A DNA stretch of 32,344 nt from a virus. Under the pieces are notes generated by a model. It made no database searches, was not told the origin of the DNA, and worked only from the letters and a program-made list of their open reading frames with translations. The stretch covers positions 1 through 32,344 of the IMG/VR virus record IMGVR_UViG_3300046170_000201; one strand, 5' to 3'. This document shows, piece by piece, positions 16,789 to 24,139 of the stretch; the first letter of the stretch is position 1, and each line of letters begins with the position of its first letter. A program made the position numbers and the translations under genes.

Positions 16789-18322
16789 TTAATCTAGAAA
16801 GCTAAGAAGTCCACCGTCAGCAAAACCTTGAGCATCATCTTCTTGTTGTTGGAGAAGATTAAAAATTGTACGGTGTTCCACCACCAAAATCTCCAAAATT
16901 TCCAAAGGGGTCAATATTGCCTGTAAGGTTTGGAGCGTTGGGATTAAACGAAGTACCGCCTCCGCCACCCGTAGGGCCGAAAAGATTTTGGATGTTTTGG
17001 ACACCACCGCCAGCGACAAACGAGGCAACCTGTGCACCAGCACTTAAAAGTTCATTTAATGGATCAATACGTGCACCTTTAGGTACTTGGCCTGGTTCTG
17101 TTTTAAGAGGTTTAACAAACGTTCTTTCTGGTCCCAATTGTGGTTCAGGTAGTGTAGGTAGTGGTTCTGGGAAGATACTCATCTGGGCTTCAGCTTTTAA
17201 ATCTTGACCTAATTTTTGTAGTTCAATTTGTTGGATGTTACGTTCAATTTGAGCAATCTGACTATCCATGTTAGCTTGTAATACTCTGTTATTAAATTCA
17301 GCTTCTTCGTTAGCAAAGCTAATAGCTTGATCAATTCTAGCAATATCAATGCCAACTTGTTTTGTTTGAAGACCTGCCGTAACTCTAGCAAATCTAGTTG
17401 CTTCATCAATTTTATTAATATTCAAATTAACACCAGTCTCTCTAACTGCTGAGTCAACATTTAGATTTAATAGTTGAATACCAGCACTACGTCTAGAACC
17501 TTTTAAAGAAGATTTTAATTGAGTTAACGTTCTAAATGATTCAGCTTGAGCAGATGCTATACTTTTAGCTGTTGATTTACCAGCCTGACCTAAAGCAGCT
17601 TGACCGGATGCTTGTAATCCTTTAACAAATTCAGCTTCTTGTTGAAATAAATTAGAATTAGAAAGATTTTTTAGTTCAGTTTGAATACTTTCAGTTTGAA
17701 TACGTCTATTACTTTGTATACCAAATAAATTTGCTTGTTGTTGTAATTTATCAATACCTAGATTAGTAAGTTGATTTTCAAACCCTGTTTTAATAGTTTC
17801 TAGTCTGACTTCTTGTGTTTCTCTATTAAAACCTTGGTTAATTAATTCATTTTGAAGATCTGCATAAAGTGATTCACGTTGAAATGCTTGTTGTAATGCC
17901 ACATCTTGTAAAGCAGCTTGTTGATCACCAATAGCTAATCCAAAAGCAGCTTCGTTATAACCAAGCTGTGCTTCATAAATACCAAGATCTTTTTCGTAAC
18001 GTGCTAAAGCTTGAGCGTATGAATAGTCTTGTATTTCTACATTGTAATCATACTGTTTTAATGCAGTTTCAAATTCAAACTCTCGTTGAGCATAATAATC
18101 ATCCTTACCTGCTTCAAAAACTTCTTTTTCGTATTCATAAACATCTCTTGCTTGTTCGTTTAATTCTACTTGTTGAGCCCTTTCACTTTTTCGTCTTTCT
18201 TCATTTATCTGACCAGAAAAAGCTGCGTTGTACAATTCGTCAAAAATTTTCATTTCAAGACCAGATGTTTCTAACTGCTCTTTAAGAAAACTTTCCTTAG
18301 GATTAAATTCAATGTCAAACAT
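16789..18322 (-). CDS. Internal virion protein (T7 gp14-like), one frameshift near its end
   Basis: This helical, Gln/Glu-rich core protein lies between tail tube B and the gp15-like gene. It starts at 18322 with an overlapping TAATG and a strong AGGAGGG. The first frame gives 487 aa and stops at 16859 after GGGTPYNF. Removing one T from the TTTTT run at about 16857-16863 continues the protein as NLLQQQEDDAQGFADGG to a stop at 16789. That fills the otherwise empty gap before the next gene. An extra base is therefore likely. The fold is dominated by long coiled coils, as expected for an ejection-core protein. The gp14 role is inferred from order. Confidence 0.7.
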
Positions 18323-20890
18323 TAAGCCCTCCTATAATATCGAGGTGAATAGTTACCTTCCCACATCATCTCTACAAGAGATACAGGATATGGATAATCA
18401 CTTGTCATTTTTAATTCAAAGTTAGTGTTACGTTGATGGATAGGTACATTAAATTTATATTCAGGTTTTACAGGACTTGTACTAAATGCATAATCATCAC
18501 TTAATGTTACCTCTTTAATTAAAGTCCATTGTTTAGAGCTACCTAATTTAGTTTCAAATACCAGTGGACCTGATCTACCAGTAGATATTTTAATTCTAGC
18601 AATAGTTAATATAGCACTAAAGTCAACAGAGTTGCCATCTCTTCGTCTAAAATAAAATGTAGGTAATTGTACTTCAAAGTGATAGTTATAGCCAATAATA
18701 ATACTATCAGCTGCATCACTTAAATTTCCTACAGCTTCAAAATAGTTATAGTTTGTATTGGCTTCAATTTTAGGTGTTACTTCTACAAAAAAGCCTGCAT
18801 CTTTATCAGGTTTACCGATTAAAAGTGCACCTTTTTTATTTTTGATAGGTTTATAAGGTGTGTAGATTTTAGTTACATTGTCAGTTGGGATATAAACAAC
18901 TTTATCGATAATTCCATCAGGAGATTTTGGGAGTGAAAACAAATCAAGACATGGATTACCTGTTACAACAAACTCATTATTAGAATCGAGTACAACAGAA
19001 ACATCCCCTGTAGGTAACTCATTAACTGTAATTGAGTTTAACAAATACGCATCTTCTTGTTGTGTTACAACTACAATGTCATCGTTTAAAACGTAAGCAT
19101 CTTGAATAGTACCTGTTAATTCCCATTTTGTCCAAGCTTGAAATAGATCTTTTTCACCATCATTATAATAACTATACATATAGATATAAGACGATTGTCT
19201 ATCTATAAGAATAATGAAAGAGTTTTGTGGACTAGAAACTAATCTAGCAACAGTTTCAGGGATCCATTCAAGAACAACTTTACTGATGTCTACAACAATA
19301 GGTGGTTGTTCTACATCTCGTAACTGCATACTAAATACTTTAGCATAATCAGGTACTTTGTTAACAAAACCTACAGTAGTCCCAATATCTACAGGAGATA
19401 TATTACTATCCATTTCATAGTTAGATACTGTACGGATAATAGAAGACGTAGGTGTCAATGTATTTGCATCAGTAGCAGATAAAATAAACTGCTGTCGATC
19501 ACCAAATAACAAAAGACCTTGAGCTGTAGGTAAGACATCAAATAACGTAACAGGTCTTGTACTAGATACATTTAAATCAATAGGATCTGATGCAACTTGT
19601 GTTGTAGCAGACTTAACAAAGAAGTTAAATGAATCATTTGCTGTACCAAAGAATACATTATCTTCAGACAACACACCAAATCTATTACTATAAAAGAAAG
19701 TAGATTGGATAGGGAAAACCAATGAAAGATGGAATAGGACTTGTTACATCATCACCAGTCTGTCTGGAGTATATGTAAGAGGACCAAATGTAAACGTAGT
19801 AGGACCAGTATTTGCTAACTGGTGTGGCATGGTAGCTGCATTAAGACCAGGTGAAGCATTACGTGCTACAGTCTCTTGCCAGTAACCCCTACCTTTTACA
19901 CCATCATCAGCTACAAACTTAACGTAGTAGTCATCTTCAGCAGATGCACTATTTAAAATTTGTACATTATGATTATGAAATGATTCAACAGGGAAGTTCA
20001 GATATGTCTGTAACTGAATCTTCAAATGCTTCTAGTGCTGTGTTAGTAGGACCACCTTTAGCATCAATAGTAAATGCTGCAGGATGTGTTTTCCATGTAT
20101 AGGTATTACTTGTTGTATCTTCATAACCAATTAATACTTGATTAGGAGTATTACTAGGTGTTGTTGAATCGTAAAAACGTTTAATAACAAGGCTAGTAGT
20201 GTAACCTTCTAGAGCCCATGTACCTGCAAAGGCTGCATTGTTTGCAGTATGTTGCGCTTCAATACCAGCTTTAACTGCATCAACAAGTTCATGTGTGGCG
20301 TTGATATGTGCTGCATCATACAACAACATGTCATCATATGTTGTAGAATTCTGAGCAGTAGCTAAAAAGGTTACACCTTGAATAATTGCTGAATACTCAT
20401 AAGTACCAATAAGTGACCTTAGATTTAACGTAGCTACTGAGTTTGAGACAAACGTACCAACTGGTTGCATAGCAGTTGTAACAGTTTTATTTGTAATAAC
20501 TGTAACGTCCTGTACACTACGGAAGTGGTAGTCTTTCTGTGTTGTACCAGTTAGATACGAAGCTGCATTGTTAGTTACAGTACAGAAGGTACCATCAGTT
20601 GTAGTCCATACATAAATGTTAGAACCTTTGATAGCACCAACATAAGAACCAGTTGCATCACGTTCAATAAAGAACCAAATAGCACCATCTAATTCAGCCT
20701 TAGTAAATGCAGTACCATCAGCTTTCTTTAATACATTTGTATGTTGCATCCCTGGTCTCTTCAATAGACCAAAGGTAGGATCAGGGTAACCGTTAATGCA
20801 TTCAGTTACTTGTCCTAATAATTTTTTGTCATCATTTTGGCGAGACACACCACCAAGAAAATTTGGTACTAGTTGTGTTACTGCTGGCAT
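18322..20890 (-). CDS. Tail tubular protein B (T7 gp12-like), broken by three indels
   Basis: This is the nozzle protein of the short tail. The start MPAVTQLVPNFLGGVSRQ and the RPGMQHTN segment are typical. The gene is read in three pieces: 19985-20890, then a middle piece to 19744, then 18322 to about 19720. Joining them restores one protein of about 855 aa. Three single-base changes are needed: one extra C in CCC at 19991-19993, one missing base near 19752-19756, and one extra base in the TTTTCCC run at 19712-19718. The conserved-looking junctions ELP/VESFHNHN and DDVTSPIPSFIG/PIQSTFFYSNRFG support this. Start overlaps the tail tube A stop as TAATG. Confidence 0.85.
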
Positions 20891-21776
20891 TATCGAATCA
20901 AAGTATGGAACGGCTGGTAGCTTTGATAGAAGTTCTTACCTTTAGGACTACCAAAGAATGTATAGTCTCCTTGGTTACACTCATATTCTAAAGCTGTAGA
21001 ACGTGCAAGAGCTTCCTTCTGTTGTAGCATTTGGAACTGATTAGGATCACCAATGATTCTACTAGATACAATAGAAGCAGACTTAGCAATAATAAATGAT
21101 TGGATAGGAGTAGGAATACTCGGCCAATCAAAGTACCAAATAACATCAACGTATAGTTTTCTCATCTGTCCAGGTAAATGAATGAGCAGTCTTATCGTAA
21201 AGTTTGCCTTCACGATTGATGCTGTCTCTATCCATGTTCTGTGTATAGGTAGGCATTCAAATCCATCTGAAGTATATTGTTAGGAATAACTACTTCGTTG
21301 TTTGAATCTGGTGTAATAGGATAGTCGTATTCTTTATTAAAAGACCATCCTTCTGATTGTATTTCGCGTGACACTTCTCTTAGGGTGTTGAGTGCAATCG
21401 CAACGTCCGGGTTGGTTTGTGATTCAACTCTACTTTTAACAATTGATTGTGTCAAGATTTGACTACTAACAGTCTGGGAGATATTGATAGTATAGTTATA
21501 TGTAACAGGGTCTGTAGCTGGGGATACCTCTACACCTGCGACGGCAATAGATGTACCAACAGTTACATTGGGACCACCAATATAGGTACCGACTGGGATG
21601 TCAGCTGTTGTAGTAGTTAGAGTAGTACCGGAAATAGAACCAGTAAATTTAGAAACTTCATTTAGTACAAAAGTTTCGTCGCTTGTTAGTGTTGTTACAG
21701 GAGCCTGACCAACTGACGCCAGGATCTGATTAACAGCTTGTAGCTCAGTGTTGGAGCCAGTAGTAGGGAAGGCCAT
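20890..21776 (-). CDS. Tail tubular protein A (T7 gp11-like), two indels and an inserted domain
   Basis: This is the adaptor ring between portal and tail nozzle. The start is MAFPTTGSNTELQAVNQIL at 21776. Two extra bases split it: one A in GAAC near 21236-21239 and one A in AAAA at 21157-21160. Correcting both gives about 294 aa, with GKLYDKTAHSFTWTDEK bridging to LYVDVIWYFDWPSIPTP. T7 gp11 is about 196 aa. The surplus lies at residues about 45-115, a Thr/Gly/Val-rich module (FTGSISGTTLTTTTADIPVG...VSSQIL) resembling repeats in phage structural proteins. The rest (REVSREIQSEGWSFNKEYDYP) matches the gp11 family well. Confidence 0.85.
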
Positions 21777-21798
21777 AATGAGTATTATTCTCAATAAA

Positions 21799-21845: not shown

Positions 21846-22971
21846 TCAGAATGCAGAAGGAGCAGTAGCACCAACATACAGTTCAACGCTAGCAGCAGGG
21901 TTCAGATAATCTGCACCACATGCCAAGCGACCAAGCATCACATCGCCTTGGTAGACGACGGATACGTCTCCACTGGTGACTTGCACCTGTGGACCGATTG
22001 CTTCGACCATACCGGCTGCTTCCTTCTGGAAGATCAAACCGCAGGACTTAGCACCGACTTCAGCAGCAGTACCATAATCATTGTTGATACCAGTAGAAGC
22101 GCCAGAGGCATCTTCCATGGTTTCAGCAACGAAAGAACCAGTGTTACCAGGATCGGTTACACCAGTGGTTCCGCCGTAAGCAGTACCATACTTACCCAGG
22201 AACGGAATGTTCATGGACTTGTAGATCTTGATACCAGCAATCTCGATGATGCCGTTGCCGACTTGCAGAGCAGTGCCCTGAGCGTCACGGTTCACAAGAC
22301 CATTAGATCCAACAGCTTGGATCAATTCATAGTATTGACGTGGGTTCAAGGACGGCGACACGGCCATCGCTAGAGACACCCTTCTCGTCAAGAGCAGCAG
22401 CTGCATCATAGAATGCAGACACCAGGTTAGCAGCAACATATGCATCAGAGTCATTGGTGGTAGAACCTACACGGATCTGTGTACCACCTGGCTCAACATA
22501 ACCAGTTGCAGTGATAGGTGAAGCCTGACGTGCACCACGTGCAACAGCACGGAATGCAAGACGGTCATACTTCTCTGCAAGAGCGTAGCCGATCTTACGT
22601 GAGATCTCGCTACGCAGGTCGTAATGAGAAAGTACCTCGTCCAATTCATAGACGAAAGCAGAGCTGATCAGCAGATCATCAATTGTGATCGTCTTCTCAG
22701 CCACTGGAGGTGCACCATTGGAATCACCCAGGATGCTGTTACCAGGAGTATGGAACTCCGACTTGGTACGACCAGTGAAGATGAACTGCAATGATTTGCC
22801 GTTCTTAAGTGTACGCTTCATGATCAAGTCACGAGCGATTGTGTTATTCTGGAAGCCTTTGAACATCTCGCCACTGAACAACTTAAGGTACAGTGCGCGT
22901 TTGTCGCCAGCTAGATTAGCCTGACCCAGCTGAGTAAGCTGAGCAGGGTTTACAGTAGATTGAAAAGCCAT
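21846..22971 (-). CDS. Major capsid protein (T7 gp10-like), one frameshift
   Basis: This is the main head protein. It starts MAFQSTVNPAQLTQLGQANL and contains KRALYLKLFSGEM and KRTLKNGKSLQFIFTGRT, typical of the T7-like capsid family. The reading frame breaks near 22343-22352: the first part reads GRVAVLEPTSIL then stops, and the other frame continues NPRQYYELIQAVGSNGLVNRD. Removing one base joins VAVL to NPRQYYEL and gives 374 aa, a normal length. The break is in the middle of the protein, unlike the end-of-gene slippage that makes T7 gp10B, so an error or mutation is likelier than programmed shifting. A structured leader precedes it and a strong terminator follows it. Confidence 0.92.
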
Positions 22972-22976
22972 TTTTT

Positions 22977-23013
22977 TAAAGAGAGTTATTTTCGACTCTC
23001 TGAACGTTCAGAG
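22977..23013 (-). promoter_or_regulatory. Hairpin and palindrome in the capsid leader
   Basis: CTCTGAACGTTCAGAG at 22998-23013 is a perfect 16-bp palindrome. Next to it GAGAGT pairs with ACTCTC around an eight-base loop, ending a few bases before the capsid ATG. The two stems compete for the shared GAGAG segment. They could stabilise the abundant capsid message or control ribosome access. No clear Shine-Dalgarno sequence precedes the ATG apart from the CTCTC-containing stem. Confidence 0.5.
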
Positions 23014-23044
23014 TTATTTAGTTGTATATGTGTGGTCTATCCCA

Positions 23045-23056
23045 CCGTCTAGACGG
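23045..23056. repeat. 12-bp palindrome CCGTCTAGACGG
   Basis: A perfect palindrome in the non-coding part of the capsid leader (22972-23125). It could be a small RNA stem only with loop disruption, or a DNA-binding site. Around it nothing else is recognised apart from the listed hairpins. Confidence 0.4.
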
Positions 23057-23094
23057 CAAAGGGTGTCCTCGTAAGGGCCAATGCCAATAGTGAA

Positions 23095-23113
23095 GAGGGG
23101 AATTGCACCCCTC
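23095..23113 (-). terminator. GC hairpin after the 15-codon gene (no T-run)
   Basis: GAGGGG and CCCCTC pair around TGCAATT, 13 nt beyond the stop of the tiny gene. Outside it AGTGA and TCACT can also pair. No T-run follows, so a processing or mRNA-stabilising element is as likely as an attenuator. Confidence 0.4.
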
Positions 23114-23125
23114 ATTAGATCTATC

Positions 23126-23173
23126 TCACTTGGTGTATTTTACACCGCGATAGCAATAAGTTTTGCCTTGCAT
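23126..23173 (-). CDS. 15-aa downstream peptide with YRGVKY motif
   Basis: The peptide is MQGKTYCYRGVKYTK. An in-frame TAG six codons before the ATG fixes this as the start, and AGAGAGG lies 5 nt upstream as a good ribosome-binding site. The YRGVxY core is the motif of the cyanobacterial DUF4278 family, short proteins of unknown role. It lies directly downstream of an RNA fold that resembles the downstream-peptide (glutamine-II) motif, whose defining context is exactly such a short gene. Its size makes independent proof difficult. The combined signal of start, ribosome site, motif and riboswitch context makes a real gene likely. Confidence 0.7.
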   Translation of the reverse strand: MQGKTYCYRGVKYTK

Positions 23174-23183
23174 AGTAACCTCT

Positions 23184-23257
23184 CTAGAAGCCTCCACAAG
23201 CCCCGTTCCATGCTTATGGTGTCATGCGTCCCGAAGGATGAACGGACGTGCTTCTAG
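23184..23257 (-). ncRNA. Downstream-peptide (glutamine-II) riboswitch candidate
   Basis: The core at 23204-23244 has outer stem CGTTC/GAACG, then stem TCC-TTCG-GGA with a stable UUCG loop, then CGCATG...GCATGG with CATG/CATG pairing. This order (CGTTCATCC, GGGACGCA, GCATGGAACG) fits my memory of the downstream-peptide motif, a glutamine-binding RNA of picocyanobacteria and cyanophages. An outer 8-bp pairing, CTAGAAGC (23250-23257) with GCTTCTAG (23184-23191), ends next to the AGAGAGG ribosome site of the tiny gene. This suggests control of translation. The exact pseudoknot could not be traced by eye. Confidence 0.7.
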
Positions 23258-23318: not shown

Positions 23319-23690
23319 TTAAAATTTGTACTTAACTCCTGCTTTAACAGTTGTTCCGATAGGCTCCCCTAGATCCATACCACCGCTAGTCAAGAATTTA
23401 AATTCACTATAAGCACCAAGACGCTCACTAAGTTGTGTCTTAATACCTACTTTACCAGAGGCTTCAGTAGTTGTTGCTTTACCGTCAGGCATTACAAAAG
23501 CAGGTCCACCTTGGATATAATATTTTGTTGATTCACTGAATTCTCCTTCATAACCAACATCATTACGCAACACTGTTTTATTAAAATCTACACCAGTAGA
23601 CTTAGACTCACTTTCAATATTTACGTAAGGACCAGCCATTACAGGAGTAGAAGCAATCAGGGTTGCAGGGAGGATAGCAAGAATTTTCAT
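23319..23690 (-). CDS. Secreted beta-barrel (porin/OmpA-like) protein
   Basis: This 123-aa protein has a clear signal peptide (MKILAILPATLIASTPVMA, cleavage after VMA) and a mature part starting GPYVNIES. The mature part has alternating polar and hydrophobic strands with GYEGEF, YYIQGGPAF, SGKVGIKT and a final VKAGVKYKF, whose aromatic last residue is typical of outer membrane barrels. Similar short barrel-like proteins occur in marine cyanophages with unknown role. It overlaps the lysozyme-like gene by 4 nt (ATGA). It may insert in the host outer membrane or modify it; this is inference. Confidence 0.7.
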   Translation of the reverse strand: MKILAILPATLIASTPVMAGPYVNIESESKSTGVDFNKTVLRNDVGYEGEFSESTKYYIQGGPAFVMPDGKATTTEASGKVGIKTQLSERLGAYSEFKFLTSGGMDLGEPIGTTVKAGVKYKF

Positions 23691-24139
23691 TGTAATTTAT
23701 TTAAAAAAGAATAAGTGTATTTTGTACGGTTACCATGAATACCCCAGCCTAACCAGTAGTAAGCAGCATTCATATAATAACGTACTGTTTGATGATTAGT
23801 TTGAAAAGCATAGAGATCTTTTCTAAACCTCATCTCATTAATCATGTAATCAGTTTGACATTGAAGACCACTAGGATCTTCGTTACGTTTAGTACAATGG
23901 TTACCAAGACCAATGTAACGATGTTTAGATGTCCATTGAATTAAACCATAACCACCACGAAGGCAGCGATCGTAAGGAACGATAGCACCACCCTCGCATA
24001 CGTTAGGTTTAAAATTAGACTCTTGTTGGATGTTACCCAGAATGACTGCTAGTGCTGTACGGTCTTTCACACCAGCAGAAGCCTGTAGTTGTTCTAGAAC
24101 GTACTGCTGAGGTGCAGTACATTGTGGGCATTCAATCAT
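23687..24139 (-). CDS. Lysozyme-like peptidoglycan hydrolase (phage tail lysozyme type)
   Basis: This 150-aa protein has the features of the phage tail-lysozyme fold. VILGNIQQESNF contains the likely catalytic Glu at residue 40, and GGYGLIQWTSKHR follows at 62-74. Several cysteines (C4, C7, C48, C59, C82, C94) suggest disulfides or metal binding. It probably cleaves peptidoglycan either as endolysin or as a virion enzyme. No signal peptide is visible. It sits in the head operon among tiny genes, joined to both neighbours by ATGA overlaps. No other endolysin is seen in the window, so it may be the lysis enzyme. Confidence 0.75.
   Translation of the reverse strand: MIECPQCTAPQQYVLEQLQASAGVKDRTALAVILGNIQQESNFKPNVCEGGAIVPYDRCLRGGYGLIQWTSKHRYIGLGNHCTKRNEDPSGLQCQTDYMINEMRFRKDLYAFQTNHQTVRYYMNAAYYWLGWGIHGNRTKYTYSFLNKLQ

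Follow-up and report, generated by a model that had tools for sequence, protein, structure and literature searches.

A phage-borne type-2 glutamine riboswitch and its YRG micropeptide in T7-like cyanophages

A Glutamine-II aptamer upstream of a short reading frame

The window, a 32,344-nucleotide stretch of the IMG/VR virus record IMGVR_UViG_3300046170_000201, carries genes of the T7-like cyanophage kind, namely capsid, scaffold, hli, tail and class II ribonucleotide reductase genes. Before the riboswitch (23319–24139, minus strand) lie a phage tail lysozyme-like gene and a cyanophage outer-membrane-like β-barrel gene (PF24653); psbA, which is usual at the riboswitch site in relatives, is absent from this interval. 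The features of the locus, in minus-strand order, are the following.

23184–23257, minus strand: outer 8-bp helix CUAGAAGC/GCUUCUAG (23257–23250 with 23191–23184), lineage-specific and present here
23195–23247, minus strand: Glutamine-II (type-2 glutamine) riboswitch aptamer (RF01704, 42.8 bits, full model)
23240–23244, minus strand: 5' strand of the pseudoknot, CGUUC, which by sequence pairs with GAACG at 23208–23204; pocket nucleotides according to PMC6698751
23229–23238, minus strand: P1 hairpin UCC-UUCG-GGA, covarying in 100 phage aptamers
23194–23219, minus strand: P2 helix CCAUAAGC/GCUUGUGG around AUGGAACGGG, the 3' strand of the pseudoknot; P2 pairing seen in 100 aptamers
23179–23185, minus strand: putative Shine-Dalgarno-like sequence AGAGAGG, 5 nt before the ATG at 23173
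23126–23173, minus strand: 15-codon reading frame MQGKTYCYRGVKYTK (ATG 23173, TGA 23126), a minimal YRG/DUF4278-like microprotein recognized by YRGxxY conservation and dN/dS
23095–23113, minus strand: T-arm-like hairpin GAGGGG-UGCAAUU-CCCCUC between the peptide and the capsid leader, recurring in relatives with changing stems
23021–23089, minus strand: structured RNA leader that belongs to the capsid gene and is distinct from the riboswitch (covariance model R1, 85.2 bits)
21846–22971, minus strand: major capsid gene (T7 gp10-like; PF21703, phrog_27239), with an extra base near 22349 that disrupts the frame

A covariance-model scan of the whole window against all 4227 Rfam families returned a single match, to RF01704 (Glutamine-II, the type-2 glutamine riboswitch) at 23195–23247 on the minus strand, which scored 42.8 bits (gathering score 33) with an E-value of 2.2e-7. 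The alignment covers the full model (positions 1–60), and the same place was matched when the region was scanned alone; the window gave no covariance-model match to RF01739 (glnA, the type-1 glutamine riboswitch). The binding-site nucleotides of the crystal structure, which are the pseudoknot CGUUC/GAACG, the linking strand CGC and the A33–G42 and C19–G41 contacts (PMC6698751), are all conserved in the window sequence, and the aptamer is predicted to bind glutamine. The window contig carries frame-breaking indels, yet its aptamer is identical in sequence to those of three relatives (L010, L014, and L058).

The initial annotation had proposed a Glutamine-II-type riboswitch on this strand and had named a covariance-model search and covariation among related phages as its tests; with a score above the gathering threshold and with P1 and P2 covarying, the riboswitch stands. 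Its CGTTC/GAACG pairing (23244–23240 with 23208–23204) and its UUCG-capped stem (P1, TCC/GGA, 23238–23229) were likewise recovered, as were the ribosome site (AGAGAGG, 23185–23179) and the 15-codon frame running from the ATG at 23173 to 23126. The proposed CATG/CATG stem could at most form as an alternative; the second helix proper is P2, which at the DNA level is formed by CCATAAGC (23219–23212) and GCTTGTGG (23201–23194) of the minus strand.

The 8-bp outer pairing of that annotation also exists in the window, but the translational control attributed to it is unsupported because the helix is not conserved, and we rejected it as the expression platform. Among 11 close relatives, only six have it at 6 bp or more; leaving one subgroup aside, such helices are about as frequent as in mispaired controls (36% versus 33%). 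That subgroup, whose peptides start with SINLIRF or SDLEK, has an outer helix of at least 6 bp in 17 of 17 cases, usually UUCGUA/UACGAA. Sequestration of the Shine-Dalgarno sequence in the free state was considered as well: constrained versus unconstrained folding of 111 phage elements gave a weak trend only, the ribosome site being easier to open with the aptamer fixed than free in 53% of the elements and harder in 22%, and the window element, in which the site is harder to open when the aptamer is folded, goes against this trend. By analogy with host type-2 riboswitches, which activate expression upon glutamine binding and hence are ON switches (PMC6316151), the direction of the phage switch is probably ON.

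Distribution of the riboswitch and conservation of the YRG micropeptide

Relatives were collected by a capsid search in IMG/VR, with at least 80 listed. RF01704 scored above its cut-off in 29 of 50 related records, including P-SSP7, S-TIP37, and MedDCM-OCT-S28-C3, and in eight of 12 further named records (P-SSP2, P-GSP1, NATL1A-7, 9515-10a, S-TIP28, S-RIP2, S-RIP1, and P-SCSP-R27W); among these 12, it is absent from 7B11-B, S-B28 and the T4-like DSL-LC03, and the copy of S-SBP1 is partial and below threshold. Overall, 11 of the 14 named T7-like cyanophages tested carry Glutamine-II, spanning 10 genera (Tiamatvirus, Igirivirus, Pedosvirus, Tritonvirus, Lingvirus, Cheungvirus, Tangaroavirus, Voetvirus, Sednavirus, and Kajamvirus). 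A chance match is ruled out as the explanation of the RF01704 score, since 14 control genomes gave no match in the same search. Genome contigs were additionally scanned with a degenerate pattern, whose hits outside cyanobacteria are mostly chance, so that a match was kept only if it had both a paired P1 and a YRG frame; frequencies from the collection scans hold for the sample only, and element counts apply among the matches listed.

In 100 distinct phage aptamers, the first four pairs of P1 are standard pairs in 97–99% of cases and the first six of P2 in 98–100%, each with many pair types, compared with 49–98% paired in shuffles and 15–80% when the strands were slid by one base; the separation from shuffles is clearest for P2 pairs 2–6 (98–100% versus 49–78%). 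Because a match to the regular expressions required the pseudoknot bases and a relaxed YRG motif, the constancy of these two elements is partly selected for. The pseudoknot is supported by five host aptamers (L341, L343, L345, L347, and L348) in which CGUCC/GGACG replaces CGUUC/GAACG, a compensatory change.

A YRGxxY frame begins 22–31 nt past the pseudoknot in 146 elements of phage and host, among the matches listed, and such a peptide follows every intact phage aptamer detected that has enough downstream sequence; the search criterion, [YFWH][RK][GR]..[YF], was looser than YRGxxY itself. Two viral aptamers with a paired P1 have no peptide (L288 and L300), and both are cut by a contig end. 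The phage peptides comprise 13–42 residues, with one of 60, and their N-terminal parts are unrelated, while YRG and the second Tyr are invariant across all 102 unique phage frames, with codons that vary synonymously. In P-SSP7, the aptamer is followed by an unannotated 17-mer, MKVTFVYRGVAYTRVIG. The dN/dS ratios (Nei-Gojobori) are about 0.06 for the 15-mers, 0.33 for the 17-mers and 0.13–0.27 for the 33–38-mers, values that are lowered by the preselection of pairs for at least 60% identity. Judged by codon substitution, the phage peptide is under purifying selection, and the short peptide of the initial annotation can be taken as real, with a frame conserved at the amino acid level and YRGxxY in all 102 frames. 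Four phages (L015, L018, L072, and S-SBP1) still encode the peptide, but the aptamer before it is broken, its 5' half having either changed or been substituted, in part at least by the end of another gene; since the peptide persists in these phages, it is seemingly the retained unit.

The riboswitch might instead be a hitchhiking host fragment that has no ligand response in the phage, and its patchy presence among close relatives, with decayed copies in L015, L018, and L072, would fit such an origin, as would the phage score of 42.8 bits, which is under the host scores, mostly 58–73. We nevertheless regard this as quite improbable: all pocket nucleotides are kept, P1 and P2 covary across the 100 distinct aptamers, the peptide is, on the same codon measure, under purifying selection, and the riboswitch is present in 10 genera.

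The capsid gene and its own leader

Relatives encode an intact 374-aa capsid protein. In the window, apparent breaks are found in the tail tubular A and B genes too (18322–21794), and these and the break in the capsid frame are probably sequencing or assembly indels. The initial annotation had placed the riboswitch and the peptide upstream of the capsid gene, a position that we confirm and that most riboswitch copies share; among the matches listed, the capsid start lies 226–1441 nt downstream of the riboswitch in 119 elements. This spacing, together with the co-orientation of the genes, which makes a polar effect on the mRNA possible, favors a role in which the riboswitch would tune capsid (head gene) expression to the glutamine supply and the peptide would be a regulatory leader. 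Several arrangements speak against it. Two genes and a tRNA-Gly separate the aptamer from the capsid gene in NATL1A-7, and four genes do so in 9515-10a, so that the riboswitch can lie as much as 1.3 kb from the capsid gene. The order in L253 is RNA polymerase, ssDNA-binding protein, outer-membrane-like protein, hli, psbA, riboswitch-peptide and gp3/gp4 region; in L221 the gene after the riboswitch-peptide pair is convergent; in L224 the riboswitch follows hli in the replication region; and L277 is a phage without match to the P-SSP7 proteins tested, yet has the riboswitch. All four copies from these non-capsid contexts are above the RF01704 cut-off. Conversely, many close relatives have the capsid gene and its leader and no riboswitch, and no U-tailed terminator-like site was found on the transcribed strand between aptamer and capsid.

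The capsid gene has, moreover, a structured leader of its own, with the consensus GGCAUUGG-CCC-NUACGN-GG-AUACCC-UUNGCC, then CCGUCUAGACGG, then GUGGGAUAGACCAC, and with double-sided changes in seven of 13 predicted pairs. Model R1 finds it beside the capsid gene in 78 of 81 capsid-containing sources, whether or not these have the riboswitch; it accompanies the capsid gene also in NATL1A-7 and 9515-10a, where the riboswitch is more than 1 kb away, and a search with R1 did not find it in L221, L224, L253, and L277. The window part of this leader matched nothing in Rfam (release 15) at E ≤ 2, and it is a candidate for a new, likely unreported RNA family, possibly a capsid translation or processing element. 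On the synteny exceptions and this separate leader, we rejected riboswitch control of the capsid gene, a role opposed by the intervening genes, the non-capsid loci, the riboswitch-free capsids and the capsid's own leader, and consider that it has little chance of being right. The link between glutamine sensing and head-gene expression drawn by the initial annotation is thus not supported, the aptamer being always with the YRG peptide and sometimes nowhere near the capsid gene: the riboswitch travels with the peptide, independent of the capsid.

Between the peptide and this leader, the window (23095–23130, minus strand) and its relatives show the T-arm-like hairpin, with a UUCGAUU or UGCAAUU loop and a short outer helix that extends into the peptide stop region; a hairpin with the loop CACCUCAGAGUCGGAC is the alternative at the same spot. 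The T-arm-like hairpin resembles a tRNA acceptor/T-arm minihelix and is perhaps an RNase P-type processing site; a tRNA or tmRNA identity was rejected, ARAGORN and Rfam giving no match. This hairpin and the other conserved structures downstream, as well as the frequent position of the riboswitch behind psbA or hli, are what would be expected if the structured RNA served mainly the processing or stability of the psbA/hli-capsid transcript, with an incidental glutamine response. Most of the conservation, however, falls within the ligand pocket, and the peptide frame shows conservation of its amino acids, which makes such a role extremely unlikely. A perfect palindrome, CTCTGAACGTTCAGAG, lies between the leader and the capsid start (22998–23013); in relatives it reads CCAAACGTTTGG or CTCAAAGATCTTTGAG, the sequence changing and the self-complementarity staying.

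Host counterparts and the proposed role of the micropeptide

Type-2 glutamine riboswitches have been described as restricted to marine picocyanobacteria and associated with DUF4278 genes, DUF4278 being the N-terminal part of the glutamine synthetase inactivating factor IF17 (PMC6316151). Weinberg et al. reported 634 Downstream-peptide RNAs before cyanobacterial ORFs of 17–100 aa and mentioned a conserved amino acid sequence (PMC2864571); many of their marine metagenome matches may already have been phage DNA. A 33-aa Yfr6 peptide has been described as well (PMC1242208, PMC2518516). We found Glutamine-II in 99 of 101 genomes of a Prochlorococcus host genus, in one to seven copies each. The host copies sampled lie mostly upstream of small proteins with one to three YRG units (DUF4278), and a few before other small proteins. 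A 57-aa host protein (MTTLTYRGKNY...LNYRGVNYTK) scores 44.2 bits with DUF4278 (PF14105), whose cut-off is 25.3, and a 33-aa host product 33.1 bits. PirA was dismissed as the host counterpart, as it is published as absent from marine picocyanobacteria.

Compared with the type-2 riboswitch of marine picocyanobacteria (Downstream-peptide or Glutamine-II RNA, RF01704; for example Yfr6 and PMM1846), the phage element has the same aptamer fold, pocket, ORF spacing and short YRG product, but it usually encodes one YRG unit (13–42 aa) instead of the one to three repeats of the host, and it sits in a T7-like transcription unit beside psbA or hli, usually before the capsid gene. YRGxxY is common to the phage peptides and to DUF4278, including the N-terminal part of IF17. 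The phage peptides keep the motif end of DUF4278 only: the 34–38-mers match the final ~20 residues of the DUF4278 model with 14–21 bits, below the cut-off of 25.3, and the 15-mer of the window is under the minimum length for scoring. The phage peptide thus resembles DUF4278 and is not filed as a member.

The reading that we favor, with a probability of roughly 80%, is that the phage-borne Glutamine-II riboswitch regulates the 15-aa YRG peptide directly behind it and thereby mimics the glutamine-controlled DUF4278 genes of the host. It draws on the observed identity, conservation and covariation of the aptamer, the fixed aptamer-peptide pair, the selection on the peptide, the host counterpart and the independence from the capsid gene. 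Glutamine binding would stabilize the pseudoknot and P2, the end of which lies shortly upstream of the ribosome site, so that initiation on the peptide would change, and the phage would probably make the peptide when intracellular glutamine is high. The peptide resembles a single repeat of the DUF4278 proteins that Prochlorococcus and Synechococcus hosts keep under the same riboswitch and, by analogy, may imitate or compete with these nitrogen-status proteins during infection. More tentatively, and with doubt outweighing confidence, a glutamine-gated, DUF4278-like micropeptide of a single repeat, delivered by T7-like cyanophages, may take control of the glutamine/DUF4278 nitrogen-control circuit of the host during infection, for example of glutamine synthetase activity.

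Glutamine riboswitches of the glnA type have been published in T4-like cyanophages (PMC9602691, PMC9964418), and a glutamine riboswitch in phage Melnitz (PMC9004378). The type-1 elements of the T4-like cyanophages (S-CREM1) and of the methylophage Melnitz are, like the present one, phage-borne glutamine aptamers, but they have a three-way junction fold (RF01739) and occur in other phage groups before other downstream genes. For Glutamine-II with a YRG micropeptide in T7-like cyanophages, no paper was found in the literature searched, subscription papers and Rfam hit lists aside. A switch described as restricted to marine picocyanobacteria here occurs widely in their T7-like phages, coupled to a minimal, single-repeat form of the protein family that it controls in the host, and it reveals a gene left without annotation in well-studied phages (P-SSP7). 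If the more tentative reading is true, a viral riboswitch-microprotein auxiliary module has been overlooked in model phages such as this one. The riboswitch also makes it possible to ask whether cyanophages read the nitrogen status of the host through RNA. The DUF4278 motif may have its smallest natural version in this peptide, which would be useful for finding the target of the motif. In five Prochlorococcus sequences (L339, L346, L349, L350, and L351), Glutamine-II precedes a distinct small-protein family (MNNLLQIREKI...YRRSVFEER) that is not of the YRG-repeat type.
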